Shown here in pieces: positions 681 to 14,374 of a stretch of 64,000 nt of DNA (position 1 is the first letter of the stretch; every line of letters starts with the position of its first letter). A model generated the notes under the pieces. That model was not told the DNA's origin. It worked only from the letters and a program-made list of their open reading frames with translations, and did not search any database. A program made the position numbers and the translations under genes. This DNA comes from Candidatus Levilactobacillus faecigallinarum (lineage in GTDB: Bacteria > Bacillota > Bacilli > Lactobacillales > Lactobacillaceae): positions 1 through 64,000 of the forward strand of contig DXGJ01000023.1 in assembly GCA_019113985.1 (NCBI GenBank), written 5' to 3'.

Positions 681-1952
681 TTACTTGGTAATCTTGGTGA
701 CGCCACCCATGTATGGTACCAGAACTTCTGGGATGGTTACGGAACCGTCGGCATTTTGGTAGTTTTCCAAAATTGCTGCGACCGTCCGGCCAACGGCTAA
801 GCCAGACCCGTTCAACGCGTGCACGTACTGCAACTTGCCCTTTTCATCCCGGTACTGGATGTGGGCCCGTCGTGCTTGGAAGTCCGTGGTGTTCGAGCAG
901 CTGGAGATTTCCCGGTAAGTGTCTTGCTCTTGGAACCAAACCTCCAGGTCATGGGTCATTGCAGCCGTGAAGCTCATGTCACTAGTCGTCAGGGTAATCA
1001 CATGGTAAGCCAAGCCTAATTGCTGTAAGAGGTCCTCAGCGTGCTTGGTGAGGGACTCCAGCTCGTTCCAGGAGTTCTCTGGCTTACAGAACTTTACCAT
1101 TTCGACCTTGTTGAACTGATGCAGCCGAATCAAGCCCCGGGTATCGCGACCGGCACTCCCCGCTTCGGAACGGAAAGCTGGTGTCAACGCCGTGAACCAG
1201 ACCGGCAAGTCCTCTTCCGGAATGACCTCATCCCGGTAATAGTTGACCAATGGGACTTCCGCCGTTGGAATCAACGTCATTTCTTCGTCCTTCAACTGGT
1301 AAACGTCTTGCTTGAACTTGGGGAATTGTCCCGTCCCGTACATCGAATCATCGTTAACGATGTACGGTGGCAGTACTTCTTTAAAGCCCGCTTCCGTATT
1401 TTGATCCAGGAAGAAGTTGTACACGGCCCGTTCGAGACGCGCGCCCAGCCCCATGTAATACAGATAACGGCTTCCGGAAACCTTAGCACCACGTTCGAAG
1501 TCTAAAATGCCCAGGTTTTCACCAATTTCCCAGTGGGGCTTTGGCGTAAAGTCCAGGTTGGGCTTTTCACCCCACTTGCGAATTTCGACACTGCCATCTT
1601 CCGTTAAGCCCACCGGTACATTATCGTTGGGAATGTTGGGCAGGTGTGCCGCTGCATCGTGAACCTGTTCCTTCAGCGTATCCAGTTCAGCATCGATTTT
1701 CTTAATGTCGGCACTAACCTGCCGCATCTCAGTAATCTTGTCATCGGCGTCCTGCTTGTTCCGCTTCAGCTGAGAGATTTCGTCAGAGACCGTGTTCCGT
1801 TGTGCCTTCATGGTCTCACTCTTGACAATTAGGTCCCGACGCTTGGCATCCATGGCCAGCAAGTCATCAATATCGGCTGGGTCGACCCCGCGAGTGGCCA
1901 ACTTTTCCTTAATAAAATCTGGTTCTTGGCGAATCAACTTTAAATCTAGCAT
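681..1952 (-). CDS. serS: Seryl-tRNA synthetase (start reset to [13 protein letters not shown]; the ORF-track start is extended)
   Basis: Typical SerRS N-terminal coiled coil and class II motifs ([38 protein letters not shown]). Confidence 0.97.
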
Positions 1953-4704: not shown

Positions 4705-4890
4705 AGTCAATATCGTTGAAAGCGCCCCGCACCCCATATATGGATGCGACAGTCCCTGATCTGTTGAACCAGGACCCAACCCACCGATTAGGTAACTCTC
4801 GGTGAATTTCGGCGGTCGCCCCTTTAACACGTCCTCTCCGGTGATACCCACCTCAGACATGCGACTCTTGTTGACCGCGCCTCTTCTATT
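4705..4890 (-). promoter_or_regulatory. Lysine riboswitch (L-box)
   Basis: Minus strand AGAGGCGCG ... AAGGGGCGACCGCCGAAA ... GGTTGGGTCCTGG ... GGGACTGTCGCATC matches the L-box conserved blocks. Confidence 0.9.
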
Positions 4891-4939
4891 CGATAAACGT
4901 AGTATACCATCCTAAGAAGACATTGCAAGGGTAAAAACG

Positions 4940-7725: not shown

Positions 7726-8502
7726 CTAGAGAAATTGTAGAACCATTGCAATACCAAACCCGATAGCGGCCGCGCTGACCAGTGCTTCCACGCCCCGGGC
7801 AGGCCCGCTGACCAGGTTCCCCGCTAAAATATCGCGCACCGAGTTGGTGATAGGAACACCGGGGACCAGGGGCATGACGCTCCCGATAATAATATCATCG
7901 ACGTTGTTACCGAATCCCCAATGATGGCTTAGGACCGCCAACAGGCCAATCGCTACCGCGGCACTAAATTCGGATAAGAACCGAATCCGAACATACTTGT
8001 TGAGGGCGTAATAGACCCACCAGCCCAGCATCCCCACGACACAGGTAATCCAGAAATCCGGGAGGTTATGCCGGAAGACCACCTCCAGCGGGCCACTGAC
8101 CAGCGCTGCCGCTAGAAGTTGGAGCCAAAACGGGAAATACTTACTAACGCTGTCAAGGTGATCCAACTGATCTGAGAATTCCTGCAGGCTGATTTGATGG
8201 TCTGCAAAGGCTCGCGAGAGGCTATTGACCACCGCGATTTTCTCCAAGTCGAACGTCCGCCGCTTCACGGGCTCAATCTGAGCCCCGACTTCACCATTAA
8301 TGGCCATTAAGATTCCCGTAATCATCACAAATAGTTGGCTGGTCCGGGCACCCGCGTTGGTCGCAATCCGGGTCATGGTATCCTCGACCCGCTCAATTTC
8401 TGACCCGTTCTCAATCATGATACGTCCGGCGGTCAACGCCGTGTGCAGGATAAGTTGGTCGTGATCTTTTGGCGACTGCAAAACGGCCCCCTCCTTTACC
8501 AT
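7726..8502 (-). CDS. ThrE-type threonine/serine exporter, N-terminal-domain subunit
   Basis: TAGRIMIENGSEIERVEDTMTRIATNAGA; IIIGSVMPLVPGVPITNSVRDILAGNLVSG. Confidence 0.88.
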   Translation of the reverse strand: MVKEGAVLQSPKDHDQLILHTALTAGRIMIENGSEIERVEDTMTRIATNAGARTSQLFVMITGILMAINGEVGAQIEPVKRRTFDLEKIAVVNSLSRAFADHQISLQEFSDQLDHLDSVSKYFPFWLQLLAAALVSGPLEVVFRHNLPDFWITCVVGMLGWWVYYALNKYVRIRFLSEFSAAVAIGLLAVLSHHWGFGNNVDDIIIGSVMPLVPGVPITNSVRDILAGNLVSGPARGVEALVSAAAIGFGIAMVLQFL

Positions 8503-8603
8503 CGTTTTTATTCATTATACGCCGGGACACTCGTGGCGAAAATAACGAATCTAATAAAAAGGACCATTGGCGCCGATTAACAGCTGTTAGCAGCACCACA
8601 CCA

Positions 8604-8633
8604 AAAAACCGCCACCCAACTCCGGGTAGCGGT
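8604..8633 (-). terminator. Terminator of mntR-like gene
   Basis: CCGCTACCCGGAGTTGGGTGGCGG-TTTTTT on the minus strand. Confidence 0.8.
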
Positions 8634-8645
8634 CACTGTCTGGTG

Positions 8646-9293
8646 TTATTTCACAAAAATGTAGTGGGCGGCTTTATAGCTGATAATCAGTTCCGAATCG
8701 TCCGTCAGGTTTTGTACCGTAACGGGGCCCTCGAACGGATCGTGCTTGAGAATCTTTAACTGATCCCCAATATCAAGCTTCAAGTCACCCAGATAGGTCA
8801 GCAGGTCGTGGTTGTCAATAAACCGATCGACCGTGACCACGTCCCCATCCTTGGCGTCGTTCAACACGGTATGGCTATCTTCATGATAGTGCCCTAACCG
8901 ATCGGGGATGACCCCACCATGGGGACAATGCGTCGGGTGGCCCAACATGTCATCGAGTGCGTCCACCAGCTTAGGGCTGGTGACGTGTTCGAGCACCTCG
9001 GCCTCGTCATGAACATCGGGTAACGCGTAGCCCAGCTTCTCAATCAAGAAGTCTTCCCAGATCCGGTGCTTCCGGACCAGGTCCTCGGCCAGTCGAATAC
9101 CCTTATTCGTTAACGAAATGCCCGCGTACGGGGTGTGTTCCGCGAGCCCCTCTGCGGCCATCTTGTTGACCATTTCAGTCACCGAGCCCGCCGCAATATT
9201 CAAACTAATGGCGATTTGCTTGTTCGACACTTTTTTCTGCCGACCGCCAAGTTCGAAAATAATCTTTAAATAATCCTCCTTCATAGGAGTCAT
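8646..9293 (-). CDS. DtxR/MntR-family metal-dependent transcriptional regulator
   Basis: MTPMKEDYLKIIFELGG...; DEAEVLEHVTSPKLVDALDDMLGHPTHCPHGGVIP; C-terminal FeoA-like domain. Confidence 0.93.
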   Translation of the reverse strand: MTPMKEDYLKIIFELGGRQKKVSNKQIAISLNIAAGSVTEMVNKMAAEGLAEHTPYAGISLTNKGIRLAEDLVRKHRIWEDFLIEKLGYALPDVHDEAEVLEHVTSPKLVDALDDMLGHPTHCPHGGVIPDRLGHYHEDSHTVLNDAKDGDVVTVDRFIDNHDLLTYLGDLKLDIGDQLKILKHDPFEGPVTVQNLTDDSELIISYKAAHYIFVK

Positions 9294-9354
9294 AGGTCGT
9301 TCACCTCATCTAAATCGTGGTTCCAACAACAATTTGTCGGCAACGTGTGCCCCA

Positions 9355-10350
9355 TTAATTATGGCGCCAATCGTTTTGGTTATAAAAAAGAGATTCGTCC
9401 TTGCCACGATAGCATTCCGCCTGAATCGTCACGTGATTGACGTTGTACTTCTCGCACAACAGCCCCTCAATCTGACGATAAACGGGTTCCACCTCGCTTA
9501 ACGGTAAATCAACCATGTTGACGTGCACGGAGAAGACCAGGTTGTTTTCATCGATCTGCCAAGCATGCAGATGATGAACGCCCTTAATCTTAGGCAACGC
9601 ACAGATGTCCTGAGCAATTGCCTCGTAGTCCAAATGCGGCGCCCCTTCCATTAGAATCGAGAAGGTTTGCTTCACAATCGGCCATGACTCGTACACGATA
9701 TACGCAGCAACCAGAATCGTAATCAGCGGGTCGACCCAGCTGATCTGCCAAACGGTAATCAGCACCGCCCCGATAATCACGCCCACTGAAGCCAAGGCAT
9801 CGCTCAACAGGTGTAAGTAAGTCGCCCGAATGTTGAGGTTGTGCTTCGACCCGTGGTTTAGCAGGATCGTCGACAGGAGGTTGGCCACAAAGCTCACCAC
9901 CGCAACCAGTAGCATGATGTCCCCTTTGACCGGTTCCGGATGCATCAGCCGGCGGACGGCTTCGCCCGCCAGGATGACCGAAATCAGGATCAAAACACCC
10001 GCGTTCAACAGCGCCGTCAAGATTTCCACCCGACGGTAGCCAAACGTATTGCTACGCGTCTGACGCCGACACCCAATGCGGTGCGCAACGTAACTCAATA
10101 TGACTGAAACGGCATCTCCCAGGTTATGAAAAGCGTCGGATAATAATGAAAGGCTCCCCGATAGTAGCCCCCCTAATAACTCGAATACCGTAATCACGAC
10201 ATTCAAAACCGTTACTAGTAGGAATCGGCCACCTGCCAAACTTTTTTTCTCCAATTTAATCTCGCCCCCGTTACCGAACATATCCCCATTATGACAGAGT
10301 TTAGGTCGAAAGGAAAGGCGGTTTTGGGGCTCCCTGACTTCCTGAATCAC
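9355..10350 (-). CDS. Cation diffusion facilitator (CzcD-like) metal transporter
   Basis: SLSLLSDAFHNLGDAVSVILSYVAHRIG...; C-terminal HHLHAWQIDENN; actual start may be internal (MFGNGGEIKLEKK). Confidence 0.92.
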   Translation of the reverse strand: MIQEVREPQNRLSFRPKLCHNGDMFGNGGEIKLEKKSLAGGRFLLVTVLNVVITVFELLGGLLSGSLSLLSDAFHNLGDAVSVILSYVAHRIGCRRQTRSNTFGYRRVEILTALLNAGVLILISVILAGEAVRRLMHPEPVKGDIMLLVAVVSFVANLLSTILLNHGSKHNLNIRATYLHLLSDALASVGVIIGAVLITVWQISWVDPLITILVAAYIVYESWPIVKQTFSILMEGAPHLDYEAIAQDICALPKIKGVHHLHAWQIDENNLVFSVHVNMVDLPLSEVEPVYRQIEGLLCEKYNVNHVTIQAECYRGKDESLFYNQNDWRHN

Positions 10351-10414: not shown

Positions 10415-10993
10415 TTATGCTAACGTCTTTTGCACCAGATGTTCTGGTTTAACGTTAGCCGTAACCCGTTCGTAAGCGTAATCTTTCACGCCATCCAGCT
10501 CAGCACCTAAATCAGACAGATCAATCATCCCGGTCTCCGTGAAACCGTTCTTCTTGATAATGTGTTGCATCGCCATGTTGTGAGGATGCGTATCGATCCG
10601 AATGCTTTCCACATTTTCGGCGTGGTCAATCTGGGTGAAGAGCCGTTGGAACAGTTCGCCGGCCAGGCCGCGACCATGATGGTGGGCAGATACTGCTACG
10701 CGATGAATCGCCAAATATGGGGCTTGCTTGGTCAACCACTGACCATCAATTTGCTTATAGGTGGGGTCGACGCCGGGAATCAGCGCGGCCGTCCCTAAGA
10801 TTTCATTGTTCTCTTCCAGCACGACCGTCCACCCCTGGTGGATGTCGTCTACGAGAACCGCCGTGTTCGGGTAGGTTCCTTGCCACTGGTCAATAGATTG
10901 CGCCGCCAAGAGTTCACGGCCGTCCCGAATAATTGCTTCAATCTGTGGTAAATCTGCCATTGTAGCTTGTCGTAACAGCATGTTTAACACCAT
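10415..10993 (-). CDS. GNAT family N-acetyltransferase
   Basis: LLRQATMADLPQIEAIIRDGR; HRVAVSAHHHGRGLAGELFQRL. Confidence 0.88.
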   Translation of the reverse strand: MVLNMLLRQATMADLPQIEAIIRDGRELLAAQSIDQWQGTYPNTAVLVDDIHQGWTVVLEENNEILGTAALIPGVDPTYKQIDGQWLTKQAPYLAIHRVAVSAHHHGRGLAGELFQRLFTQIDHAENVESIRIDTHPHNMAMQHIIKKNGFTETGMIDLSDLGAELDGVKDYAYERVTANVKPEHLVQKTLA

Positions 10994-11177
10994 CCTTCGT
11001 GTTTTTGATTTAAACGATTTTGTAATCTTAACACGCTCGATTCAAAAAACAACCCACGCGAATCACTTTTTTTCGACTTATCATTTTAAAATCAATTGAA
11101 TTCAGGCGGCACAACGATTTTGGCGTCACATTATTTTCTCATATTCTTAATTGTCCCCGACCATTAAAAATGGCCAC

Positions 11178-11219
11178 ACAAAAATCCCCACCGAAGAACC
11201 TTCTAAACTTCGGTGGGGA
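11178..11219 (-). terminator. Rho-independent terminator
   Basis: Perfect 12-bp stem tccccaccgaag/cttcggtgggga with U-tract on the minus strand. Confidence 0.9.
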
Positions 11220-11463
11220 CCTACAGGGGCGGACACAGGCGAGTGAAAATCAAAACATGTTAATTTTCAAAAACACGTCGTTTCAGTTACGATCGCTTAC
11301 GCTAGCCTATGACTAGCGTAGTCCATGCGCAAGTTTACGCGCTATTACTCTTGGTTATTCGCCTGGTTTCACAACACGTCAAACAACATGATTGACTACC
11401 AATCCAGCCAGAAGATCGATTGGCATCGAAGGTCTTTACTGCCCGCGGCCGTCATTCCCCTAC
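11178..11463 (-). ncRNA. Orphan structured small RNA candidate with own promoter and terminator
   Basis: Minus strand: TTGTTA-17 nt-TAGGCT with extended -10, GGGG-starting transcript, several nested stems, strong terminator TCCCCACCGAAG...CTTCGGTGGGGA-TTTTT; no ORF. Confidence 0.65.
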
Positions 11464-11510
11464 ATTTTTAGCCTACCATTTTTGTGCGGGATTAACAACG
11501 AAAAGGGCCA

Positions 11511-11957
11511 TTATTCCACCGAATCCAGCCGAAAATGCCATTGTTCCTCCTGGCGGTAGGCAATTAAGCGTTTGGTCGGTTCCGGATCAAACACGCCCAG
11601 GTCAATAGTAGTCTGTTCCCCCGCCGTTAACGCCATGAAGCGCTCTTCGAAAAACGACCGTAAAACTTCCGCGTAAACTGAACGTTTCTGTGCCCGTTGC
11701 ACGGCACTACTTAGTGTATAACCCTCATCCAGGAACGTCTTGATTTGCCGAATCTCAATGACCGTTTTATAGGAGAATTTACGATTACCACCACCGGTAA
11801 CCTCCGCGCTGTGCACGTAGCCCTTACGCTCCCAGTACCGGAGTTGACTGGGCGACACCCCCGTCACCCGAGCAACGTCACCGATACCCAGAATCATTTC
11901 ATCAATCGGGACCTTTTTCATAAATTTTGCAATATCCGTTTTTTCCATTTCTACCAC
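11511..11957 (-). CDS. MerR-family transcriptional regulator
   Basis: MILGIGDVARVTGVSPSQLRYWERKGYVHSAEVTGGGNRKFSYKTV. Confidence 0.93.
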   Translation of the reverse strand: MVEMEKTDIAKFMKKVPIDEMILGIGDVARVTGVSPSQLRYWERKGYVHSAEVTGGGNRKFSYKTVIEIRQIKTFLDEGYTLSSAVQRAQKRSVYAEVLRSFFEERFMALTAGEQTTIDLGVFDPEPTKRLIAYRQEEQWHFRLDSVE

Positions 11958-12158: not shown

Positions 12159-13649
12159 GTGGGTAAAGCAATTGATACCAACGGAAAGCCTTATAGCCGG
12201 AGCTTGCTAGTTGCGCTCCTGTTAATCGGGACATTCTGTACGGTTTTGAATCAAACGATTTTAAGTACCGCCTTTCCAACCTTAATGAAGGCGTTCGACG
12301 TCAACACGTCGACGGTTCAATGGTTGACGACGGGTTTCTTACTGGTCAATGGGATTATGATTCCCATCAGTGCTTGGCTGATTAACACCATCAGTTCCAA
12401 GTGGTTGTACATCGGCGCGATGTCGATTTTCTTAGTCGGGACCATCCTCTGCTGGTCCGCCATCAGCTTCCCAATGCTGCTGATTGGTCGGTTAGTTCAG
12501 GCCGTTGGGGTCGGGGTTTCGATGCCACTACTCCAAACCATGATGCTGACCATCTTCCCAGCGAACAAGCGGGGAACTGCCATGGGATTAGCCGGAATCG
12601 TTATCGGGTTAGCACCTGCCATTGGCCCAACCTTATCCGGGTGGGTCATCGATAACCTGAGCTGGCGAGACCTCTTTGGGATGATTATTCCTATCGTTAT
12701 TGTTGTCATCATTGCCAGTTTCTGGGTCATGCGGAGCGTCTTGGAGACCGAAAAGTCCCCATTGGACATCTGGTCCGTTCTCCTCTCCACGGTTGGTTTT
12801 GGGAGCATGCTCTACGGCTTCTCCTCCGTTGGGGACGATGGCTGGGGCAGTGCCAAGGTTCTGACCACCCTTATCGTTGGTCTGATCTTCGTGGTTCTCT
12901 TCATCTGGCGTCAACTGCGGATGGACGATCCATTCTTGAACTTCCGCGTTTACAAGTCTAAGGAATTTACGGTTGCCGCTATCCTGAGTTCCGTGGTCAT
13001 GATGGCCATGGTCGGGGTCGAAATGGTCATTCCACTGTATCTGCAAATGGTCAAGGGCATGTCCGCCTTCCATTCTGGGTTGACTCTGTTGGCTGGTGCC
13101 CTAATGATGGGGGTTATGAGCCCCATTACCGGTCGGGCGTTTGACCGCTTCGGCGCCAAGCGCTTAGCCATCATGGGGATGTTCCTTCTGACGGTTGGGA
13201 CGTTACCATTCGCCTGGATCACCAAGGATTCATCGACGCTGTACATCGTGATTCTCTATGCTATTCGGATGTTCGGGATTGCCATGGTCATGATGCCAGC
13301 CACCACGGCCGGGATGAACGCCCTGCCAATGAACCTGATCAGTCACGGGACCGCCGTCAACAACACGCAACGGCAAGTGGCTAGTTCCGTGGGGACGGCC
13401 ATCTTGGTCAGTGTCTTGACCAACGTAACCAAGAACCAGATGCCCGCTAAGCACGTGTTGACCTCTAACCCACTGGGGTACGCCAACGGCGCCATCAACG
13501 CCACCTTGTCCGGTTACCACGCCGCCTTCTGGATTGCCATTGGGTTCAGCGTCCTGGCACTGGTCGTTGCCTTCTTCTTAAAGGGCAGTAACCACTCCAC
13601 TCACGTGACCGACGTTCAACCGGAAACTGATAAGGGAGGTGCCGCATAA
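12159..13649 (+). CDS. MFS multidrug efflux transporter, DHA2 (EmrB/QacA) family; GTG start
   Basis: 14-TM-type DHA2 features: GTFCTVLNQTILSTAFPTLMKAF, GLVIGLAPAIGPTLSGW-like motif C. Confidence 0.93.
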   Translation: MGKAIDTNGKPYSRSLLVALLLIGTFCTVLNQTILSTAFPTLMKAFDVNTSTVQWLTTGFLLVNGIMIPISAWLINTISSKWLYIGAMSIFLVGTILCWSAISFPMLLIGRLVQAVGVGVSMPLLQTMMLTIFPANKRGTAMGLAGIVIGLAPAIGPTLSGWVIDNLSWRDLFGMIIPIVIVVIIASFWVMRSVLETEKSPLDIWSVLLSTVGFGSMLYGFSSVGDDGWGSAKVLTTLIVGLIFVVLFIWRQLRMDDPFLNFRVYKSKEFTVAAILSSVVMMAMVGVEMVIPLYLQMVKGMSAFHSGLTLLAGALMMGVMSPITGRAFDRFGAKRLAIMGMFLLTVGTLPFAWITKDSSTLYIVILYAIRMFGIAMVMMPATTAGMNALPMNLISHGTAVNNTQRQVASSVGTAILVSVLTNVTKNQMPAKHVLTSNPLGYANGAINATLSGYHAAFWIAIGFSVLALVVAFFLKGSNHSTHVTDVQPETDKGGAA

Positions 13650-14374
13650 TGATTATTATTACGCTCATTTTGTCGGTCGTCCTGGCATTCGTATTCTACG
13701 TTTACATGCACAACCGCGTTTTAAGCAACATCTTGACGGTCTTGATGATTGTCATCATGGGATTCAGTACCCTCTTCATCGTGAAAAACGACCACGACCA
13801 TTACGGCCTGCATAACGTTACCCAGACCACCACGCAAAAGATTTACTCAGCGTCGCCGTCGAAGCAGATGCCAATGGTGATCTACCAATCCGTCGGCACG
13901 GCAGACAAGCACCGGGTCTACGTTTACAAGACCAGCGCTGACGCCAAGAAGACGGCTCACACCAAGGCCAAGGTCACCACGACCAACGTGGTCAAGCGCA
14001 CGACGGGTAAGAACCGCATCGTGACCACCAAAACCTACCGTGAGTACAAGAACAGCACCTACAAGTTCTGGTTCGGTCTCGCGGGGAACGGTCACCAGTA
14101 CGTGAAGGAAACCAACACGATTTACCTGAACAAGAACTGGACCGTTCTAAGTGCCACCCAAGCCAAGCAACTTCAAAAGTTAGCGAAGTCCAAGAGCTTC
14201 CAAGCAAAACAAAAGACTGCCGCTAAAGCCTACGTTCAAAAGCAGGTCATGGCCGCTATGACCAAGAACCCTAGCATGAGCGCTGCCCAACGGCAACAAG
14301 TGATCAAGCAAGCTACGGCTGCTTACCAAGCCCAAGCCATGCAACAACTGATCAAGCAAGTTAAACAAAACTAG
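13649..14374 (+). CDS. DUF4811-like membrane-anchored protein
   Basis: Two N-terminal TM segments then a Lys/Gln-rich extracytoplasmic domain; start overlaps stop of the MFS gene. Confidence 0.7.
   Translation: MIIITLILSVVLAFVFYVYMHNRVLSNILTVLMIVIMGFSTLFIVKNDHDHYGLHNVTQTTTQKIYSASPSKQMPMVIYQSVGTADKHRVYVYKTSADAKKTAHTKAKVTTTNVVKRTTGKNRIVTTKTYREYKNSTYKFWFGLAGNGHQYVKETNTIYLNKNWTVLSATQAKQLQKLAKSKSFQAKQKTAAKAYVQKQVMAAMTKNPSMSAAQRQQVIKQATAAYQAQAMQQLIKQVKQN

Follow-up and report, generated by a model that had tools for sequence, protein, structure and literature searches.

A stand-alone structured RNA gene, apparently of a new family, conserved in part of the Lactobacillaceae

What is encoded between the MerR-family regulator gene and the GNAT gene of Levilactobacillus? 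We addressed this question in a 64,000-nt stretch of DNA (hereafter the window) from a Levilactobacillus genome that was 72% complete. Between the end of the MerR gene at 11511 and the start codon of GNAT at 10993 is a non-coding gap of 517 bp (10994-11510), as an initial annotation of the window had noted. That annotation had placed an orphan structured RNA of ~280 nt on the minus strand of this gap, with a start near 11460. Its start, end and length were right, our own predicted start being ~11463 (Table 1). The locus almost certainly holds a real and independent RNA gene, with covarying helices, its own promoter and terminator, and a copy in every genome of the genus that we searched. It ranks among the stand-alone structured RNAs of bacteria, and its family appears to be new.

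Table 1. Features of the RNA locus in the window. Pairings are written on the minus strand.
Feature	Position	Strand	Sequence or pairing	Remarks
RNA gene	11178-11463	minus	predicted transcript ~284 nt; 5' end ~11463; 3' end in T-tract ~11180-11178	conserved in the genus; covariance-model matches in five named genera
Promoter	11470-11498	minus	-35 TTGTTA 11498-11493; 17-nt spacer; extended -10 TGG-TAGGCT, hexamer 11475-11470	
P0, outermost short pairing	11225-11461	minus	AGGGG 11461-11457 with CCCCT 11229-11225	in MFE fold
P1, closing stem	11232-11449	minus	GCCGCGGGCAG 11449-11439 with CTCGCCTGTGTC 11243-11232	
P2 hairpin	11397-11425	minus	TGCCAATC 11425-11418 with GATTGGTA 11404-11397	near-invariant loop GATCTTCTGGCTG 11417-11405
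P3	11274-11390	minus	CATGTTGTTT 11390-11381 with AACGACGTG 11282-11274	closes inner multi-branch domain
P4 (alternative A)	11337-11379	minus	ACGTGTTGT 11379-11371 with ATAGCGCGT 11345-11337	
P4b (alternative B)	11327-11342	minus	GCGCG 11342-11338 with TGCGC 11331-11327	
P5 hairpin	11298-11320	minus	TACGCTAGT 11320-11312 with GCTAGCGTA 11306-11298	
Junction 3' of P5	11284-11296	minus	consensus AGnn(A/G)ATCGT, then A-rich stretch	conserved in five named genera
P6 hairpin, A/T-rich	11244-11269	minus	TGAAAATT...GATTTTCA	arms visible in aligned homologs
Intrinsic terminator	11178-11221	minus	GTCCCCACCGAAG 11220-11208 with CTTCGGTGGGGAT 11196-11184, T-tract	conserved loop TTTAGAAGGTT
MerR-family regulator	11511-11957	minus		neighbour outside the RNA; Pfam MerR_1 3.5e-16
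GNAT gene	10415-10993	minus		downstream neighbour

A single copy of the RNA was found in 36/36 Levilactobacillus genomes, with 78-86% identity. The mean pairwise identity was 86% for the RNA core, 65% over 400 bases towards MerR and 25% over the 150 bases past the terminator. Given that the RNA was better conserved than the adjacent protein gene and was present in every genome of the genus searched, its loss is probably costly to the cell.

The gene is bounded by an extended -10 promoter, described earlier as TTGTTA-17-TAGGCT and having its TG one base 5' of the hexamer, and by an intrinsic terminator. Taken on its own the promoter is weak: TAGGCT matches 3/6 consensus positions, and a consensus scan missed it. 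The terminator, with its 11-nt loop, was likewise missed by a simple scan whose loop limit was 8. We took both elements as real because they are conserved. At the sequence level, all 22 representatives from five genera (RNA lengths 273-304 nt) kept the promoter form TTGTnn-17-TGnTAnnnT. In the genus alignment, the 13-pair terminator stem was 94.8% paired and 11/13 pairs had changed on both sides, in agreement with the strong terminator first described. No operator shared near the promoter was noticed among the genera compared, which makes constitutive expression the simplest guess.

Within the genus, the terminator loop TTTAGAAGGTT (11197-11207, minus strand) was near-invariant, and it could still be recognised in Secundilactobacillus and Pediococcus. 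Such conservation is uncommon for a plain terminator, and the loop could be an interaction site.

The promoter also bears on the idea that the RNA is part of the MerR transcript, as a 3' UTR element or a remnant of MerR control. The RNA promoter begins 12 nt after the MerR stop codon, the same MerR gene lay upstream in the Levilactobacillus loci examined, and in Lactiplantibacillus and Furfurilactobacillus, too, the RNA follows MerR immediately and on the same strand. However, a conserved promoter separates the two genes, the RNA is conserved more strongly than MerR, and the Pediococcus copy has another upstream gene and no MerR, so that we give this idea only a very slight chance. The original description of the RNA as downstream of MerR therefore holds here and in three genera, but the Pediococcus locus shows that it is not defining. 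Divergent from the MerR gene, at 12159-14374 (plus strand), are an MFS transporter gene and then a DUF4811 gene; the MFS-MerR pair is retained in Lactiplantibacillus and Furfurilactobacillus.

To which bacteria is the RNA confined? A DNA search of the family gave short matches in other genera, and a covariance model (R1) gave full-length matches in five genera. A GTDB-wide pattern scan located homologs in Levilactobacillus, Lactiplantibacillus (including L. plantarum EGD-AQ4), Furfurilactobacillus, Secundilactobacillus and Pediococcus (P. cellicola, P. ethanolidurans, P. parvulus and P. damnosus). The refitted model (R2) scored 47 such records with E values from 3e-31 to 3e-20. The search with a locally built covariance model that the initial annotation had proposed thus extended the RNA from the whole genus sample to at least four further genera. 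Pattern matches outside the lactobacilli scored as noise with R2 (best E 0.026), and weak family-level matches (L129-L133), all partial alignments, were discarded as chance or coding sequence.

A sixth genus (g14) gave a weak, divergent match at locus L144 (~1501-1644, minus strand; E 5.8e-6). Immediately downstream of it are the same cation-efflux and MntR-type genes, and above it lie genes shared with the surroundings of the Pediococcus copy; this synteny makes it probably an ortholog. Next to the L144 candidate is a very short MerR-like gene, of a kind also seen before the RNA of Secundilactobacillus.

Most other Lactobacillaceae genera, represented by one genome each, gave no match, and no homolog was found in samples from the rest of the order (398 genomes) or the class (400 genomes) under strict filters that may lose weak matches. 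No genuine homolog was found outside the Lactobacillaceae and, at the sensitivity used, the RNA family is confined to part of this family. The plasmid and phage collections searched contained no similar DNA, and an origin from either was rejected.

Folding energy gave an ambiguous picture of the RNA. The minus-strand fold had a z-score of -5.3, with 0/200 dinucleotide shuffles as stable, but the plus strand also beat all shuffles (z = -4.4). With the terminator removed, z-scores of the homologs ranged from -0.6 to -6.4, being modest in most and about -0.6 to -2 in several. As folding energy was not decisive, we placed the weight on conservation and covariation. Covariation was counted over 36 distinct aligned sequences and 59 pairs in six helices. 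We found that 97.3% of the cells paired, compared to 36-46% when the partners were slid by 1-3 columns, and that 24 pairs (219 cells) had changed on both sides. None of 500 shuffles was as good on any of five measures. Over six genera, P2 and P3 together were 98.8% paired. Non-Watson-Crick pairs comprised 263 G-U and 24 A-C pairs, indicating that the minus strand is the RNA strand.

The outer helices P0 and P1 join the ends of the RNA, and their letters are quite unlike from genus to genus. P0 has the genus consensus CGGGAG/CTCCCG, with equivalent pairings of other letters in other genera. For P1, 6/11 pairs had changed on both sides and 93.9% of cells were paired within the genus. P2 was 99.7% paired in the genus, and over six genera 6/7 of its pairs had changed on both sides. 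P3 was 99.4-99.5% paired both in the genus and across genera; its changes were mostly one-sided because its sequence (CATGTTG with CAACGTG or CGACGTG) hardly varies. Three of the nine P5 pairs had changed on both sides in the genus and three more on one side, and other genera keep the hairpin with different letters. P6 was left out of the covariation scoring owing to gaps. The least variable letters were those of the P2 loop, both P3 strands, the GCGC words and the AGnnATCGT junction. A pseudoknot between the P2 loop and the AUCGU junction, looked for by eye, had only three consistent pairs (GAU/AUC) and is not claimed.

Several of these helices had been proposed from the window sequence. P5 corresponds to the TACGCTAG/CTAGCGTA stem, which covaries, P4b to the GCGC hairpin, P6 to TGAAAAT/ATTTTCA and the P2 hairpin to CAATC/GATTG. 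The CAGGCGA/TCGCCTG pairing, which had been thought to close a domain, was abandoned: three Levilactobacillus species have GGCTA there, the GGCGA segment is absent from Lactiplantibacillus and the other genera checked, and the conserved closing stem is GCCGCGGGCAG/CTCGCCTGTGTC. One arm of that pairing was also placed one base off, its position being 11359-11365 (minus strand). A TCGAT/ATCGA stem competes with P2 and found no support.

P4 and P4b are mutually exclusive. Pairing of the 5' GCGC word with the preceding ACGTGTTGT gives P4, and its pairing with a second GCGC further on gives P4b, never both together. P4 was nearly invariant and 100% paired in the genus; Lactiplantibacillus and Secundilactobacillus build it from different letters, and it is weak in Furfurilactobacillus and Pediococcus. 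In Levilactobacillus, Lactiplantibacillus and Secundilactobacillus it comprised 8-12 pairs, with an energy of about -9 to -13 kcal/mol. P4b was 97.8% paired in the genus; its energy was about -5 to -9 kcal/mol across the five genera, and its Pediococcus form, GCGTA/TACGC, is a both-sided change. The conservation of both pairings hints at a two-state RNA. Instead of a switch, they could also be a by-product of the words GCGC and ACGTG, which recur in the sequence.

We then asked whether the RNA belongs to a known class. A cmscan of the window and of homologs from three genera against 4,227 Rfam families gave no match at this locus or in the homologs at the gathering threshold, and relaxing the cut-off to E values of up to 10 added only chance matches to miRNA and RgsA models. 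The novelty check suggested at the outset therefore returned no confident match to a known RNA, and the view that this is not tmRNA, RNase P RNA, SRP RNA or a common riboswitch was upheld. The Rfam covariance models for these three RNAs and for raiA, OLE, ROOL and GOLLD gave no match. The initial annotation had left 6S and raiA open, and both are now excluded at the locus: 6S is encoded elsewhere in 33/36 genomes of the genus and its model does not match here. The size and style of the RNA resemble those of 6S or raiA RNA, but a divergent member of a known family (6S, raiA, tmRNA, SRP RNA, RNase P RNA or any other in Rfam) is highly improbable given these results for both the locus and its homologs. 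A search of the main texts of published papers yielded no description and no transcript that could be tied to the RNA; an unnamed entry in an RNA-seq table is possible.

A peptide-coding role was also rejected. The ORF from the conserved ATG spans 2-33 codons among the 22 representatives with no common frame, in line with the earlier remark that no convincing ORF is present.

A multi-branch fold followed immediately by an intrinsic terminator is also what a cis-acting riboswitch or attenuator would look like, with the terminator controlling the next gene, and GNAT lies downstream in two genera (Levilactobacillus and Secundilactobacillus). However, the downstream gene varies among genera. Lactiplantibacillus has an opposite-strand ORF and then an MntR-type repressor, Furfurilactobacillus a beta-galactosidase and Pediococcus an RNase Y-like gene (the last three named by eye from sequence). 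The nearest downstream ORF in L. plantarum lies on the other strand, and the spacer past the terminator is unconserved (25%). The RNA is therefore not a riboswitch for one gene, and we consider cis-acting control very unlikely. Sequence comparison shows the independence from the downstream gene and the lack of a conserved ORF, just as it shows the gene boundaries, fold, strand and conservation.

Behind the RNA, at 7726-10350 (minus strand), lies a syntenic block that encodes a cation-efflux (CDF) transporter, a DtxR/MntR-type repressor carrying a FeoA domain and an exporter of the ThrE type. Secundilactobacillus, Lactiplantibacillus and the g14 candidate also have all or part of this block behind the RNA. 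Elsewhere, the window carries a full-length lysine riboswitch aptamer (4712-4893, minus strand; 113.9 bits against a cut-off of 30) and, at its edge, two tRNA genes (84-165 and 202-274, both minus strand).

How might such an RNA work? For its level of transcription, its binding to a partner and a P4/P4b switch, we infer the following. The ~280-nt RNA would be transcribed constitutively from its own extended -10 promoter, stop at its own terminator and act in trans as an RNA, not through a peptide or the next gene. Its body forms a closed multi-branch fold in which P0 and P1 bring the ends together, P2 presents its near-invariant 13-nt loop, and P3 encloses P4/P4b and P5, with P6 next. The parts of fixed sequence (P2 loop, P3 strands and AGnnAUCGU junction) may form the surface that a partner binds, with a protein or RNP the likeliest candidate, and the change between P4 and P4b may belong to the working cycle. 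The RNA would then be a regulatory or scaffold RNA of a house-keeping type, of the 6S or OLE sort. With modest confidence, we regard a constitutive, trans-acting, folded non-coding RNA with a protein or RNP partner as the best explanation as a whole, the partner being its conjectural step. Since the near-invariant letters span a loop, a helix and a junction and not one seed, a protein or RNP partner is favoured; whether the partner is mainly of this type rather than mRNAs is, to judge from sequence, an evenly balanced matter.

The main rival is a trans-acting base-pairing sRNA that would bind mRNAs through an exposed segment (the P2 loop, the loop of the terminator or a P3 strand that has opened) and so alter their translation or decay. 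The gene's own promoter and terminator and the near-invariant exposed loop are as expected of such an sRNA, and the terminator loop is conserved within the genus. However, the conservation extends over the whole 200-nt fold, beyond the needs of a seed. A 12-nt complement of the P2 loop occurred at 52 further sites in the 36 genomes; the 19 sites that were read, for this P2-loop 12-mer only, did not recur at one gene start, and most were antisense to membrane-protein-like codons (Ile-Phe-Trp-Leu) of protein genes. A backwards-pattern control gave 7 matches and was unfair, as it contains a stop codon. On the sites read we rejected a P2-loop antisense target, and that no conserved mRNA site emerged among them tilts the balance somewhat to a protein as partner. 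An sRNA might also act by a short seed or by a different segment, and we hold the base-pairing sRNA to be rather unlikely.

A bolder version of the protein- or RNP-bound RNA would place it in a new class, found in part of the Lactobacillaceae, as a regulatory RNA of house-keeping type whose fold switches between P4 and P4b upon partner binding to the invariant P2 loop. We put this forward as a speculative and doubtful proposal.

L. plantarum, L. brevis and Pediococcus matter as models, in food and in the spoilage of beer, and Rfam has no family for this RNA. Because its gene could be deleted in tractable species, it makes a concrete target, and it joins the few orphan structured RNAs listed from bacteria.

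Compared to known systems, the RNA shares with riboswitches and attenuators, of which the lysine riboswitch is a true example in the window, a structured domain followed by a terminator, but it has no constant downstream gene across genera. Like 6S RNA (RF00013, SsrS), it is stand-alone, single-copy and chromosomal, with a closed long fold that is widely kept in its lineage. It differs from 6S RNA in being ~100 nt longer and multi-branched, in not matching the 6S model, and in occurring in genomes with a separate 6S gene. The raiA, OLE, ROOL and GOLLD RNAs are likewise stand-alone, strongly conserved and covarying, with neighbours that are uninformative on function; the present RNA has no Rfam match, is shorter than OLE, ROOL and GOLLD, and is found in only part of the Lactobacillaceae. 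Among Gram-positive base-pairing sRNAs, rss03 of Streptococcus suis (303 nt; PMC12005413) resembles it in length and in being an independent chromosomal sRNA gene, a likeness by description. Unlike such sRNAs, the present RNA showed no conserved mRNA complement to its P2 loop among the sites read, and its conservation spans the whole fold.
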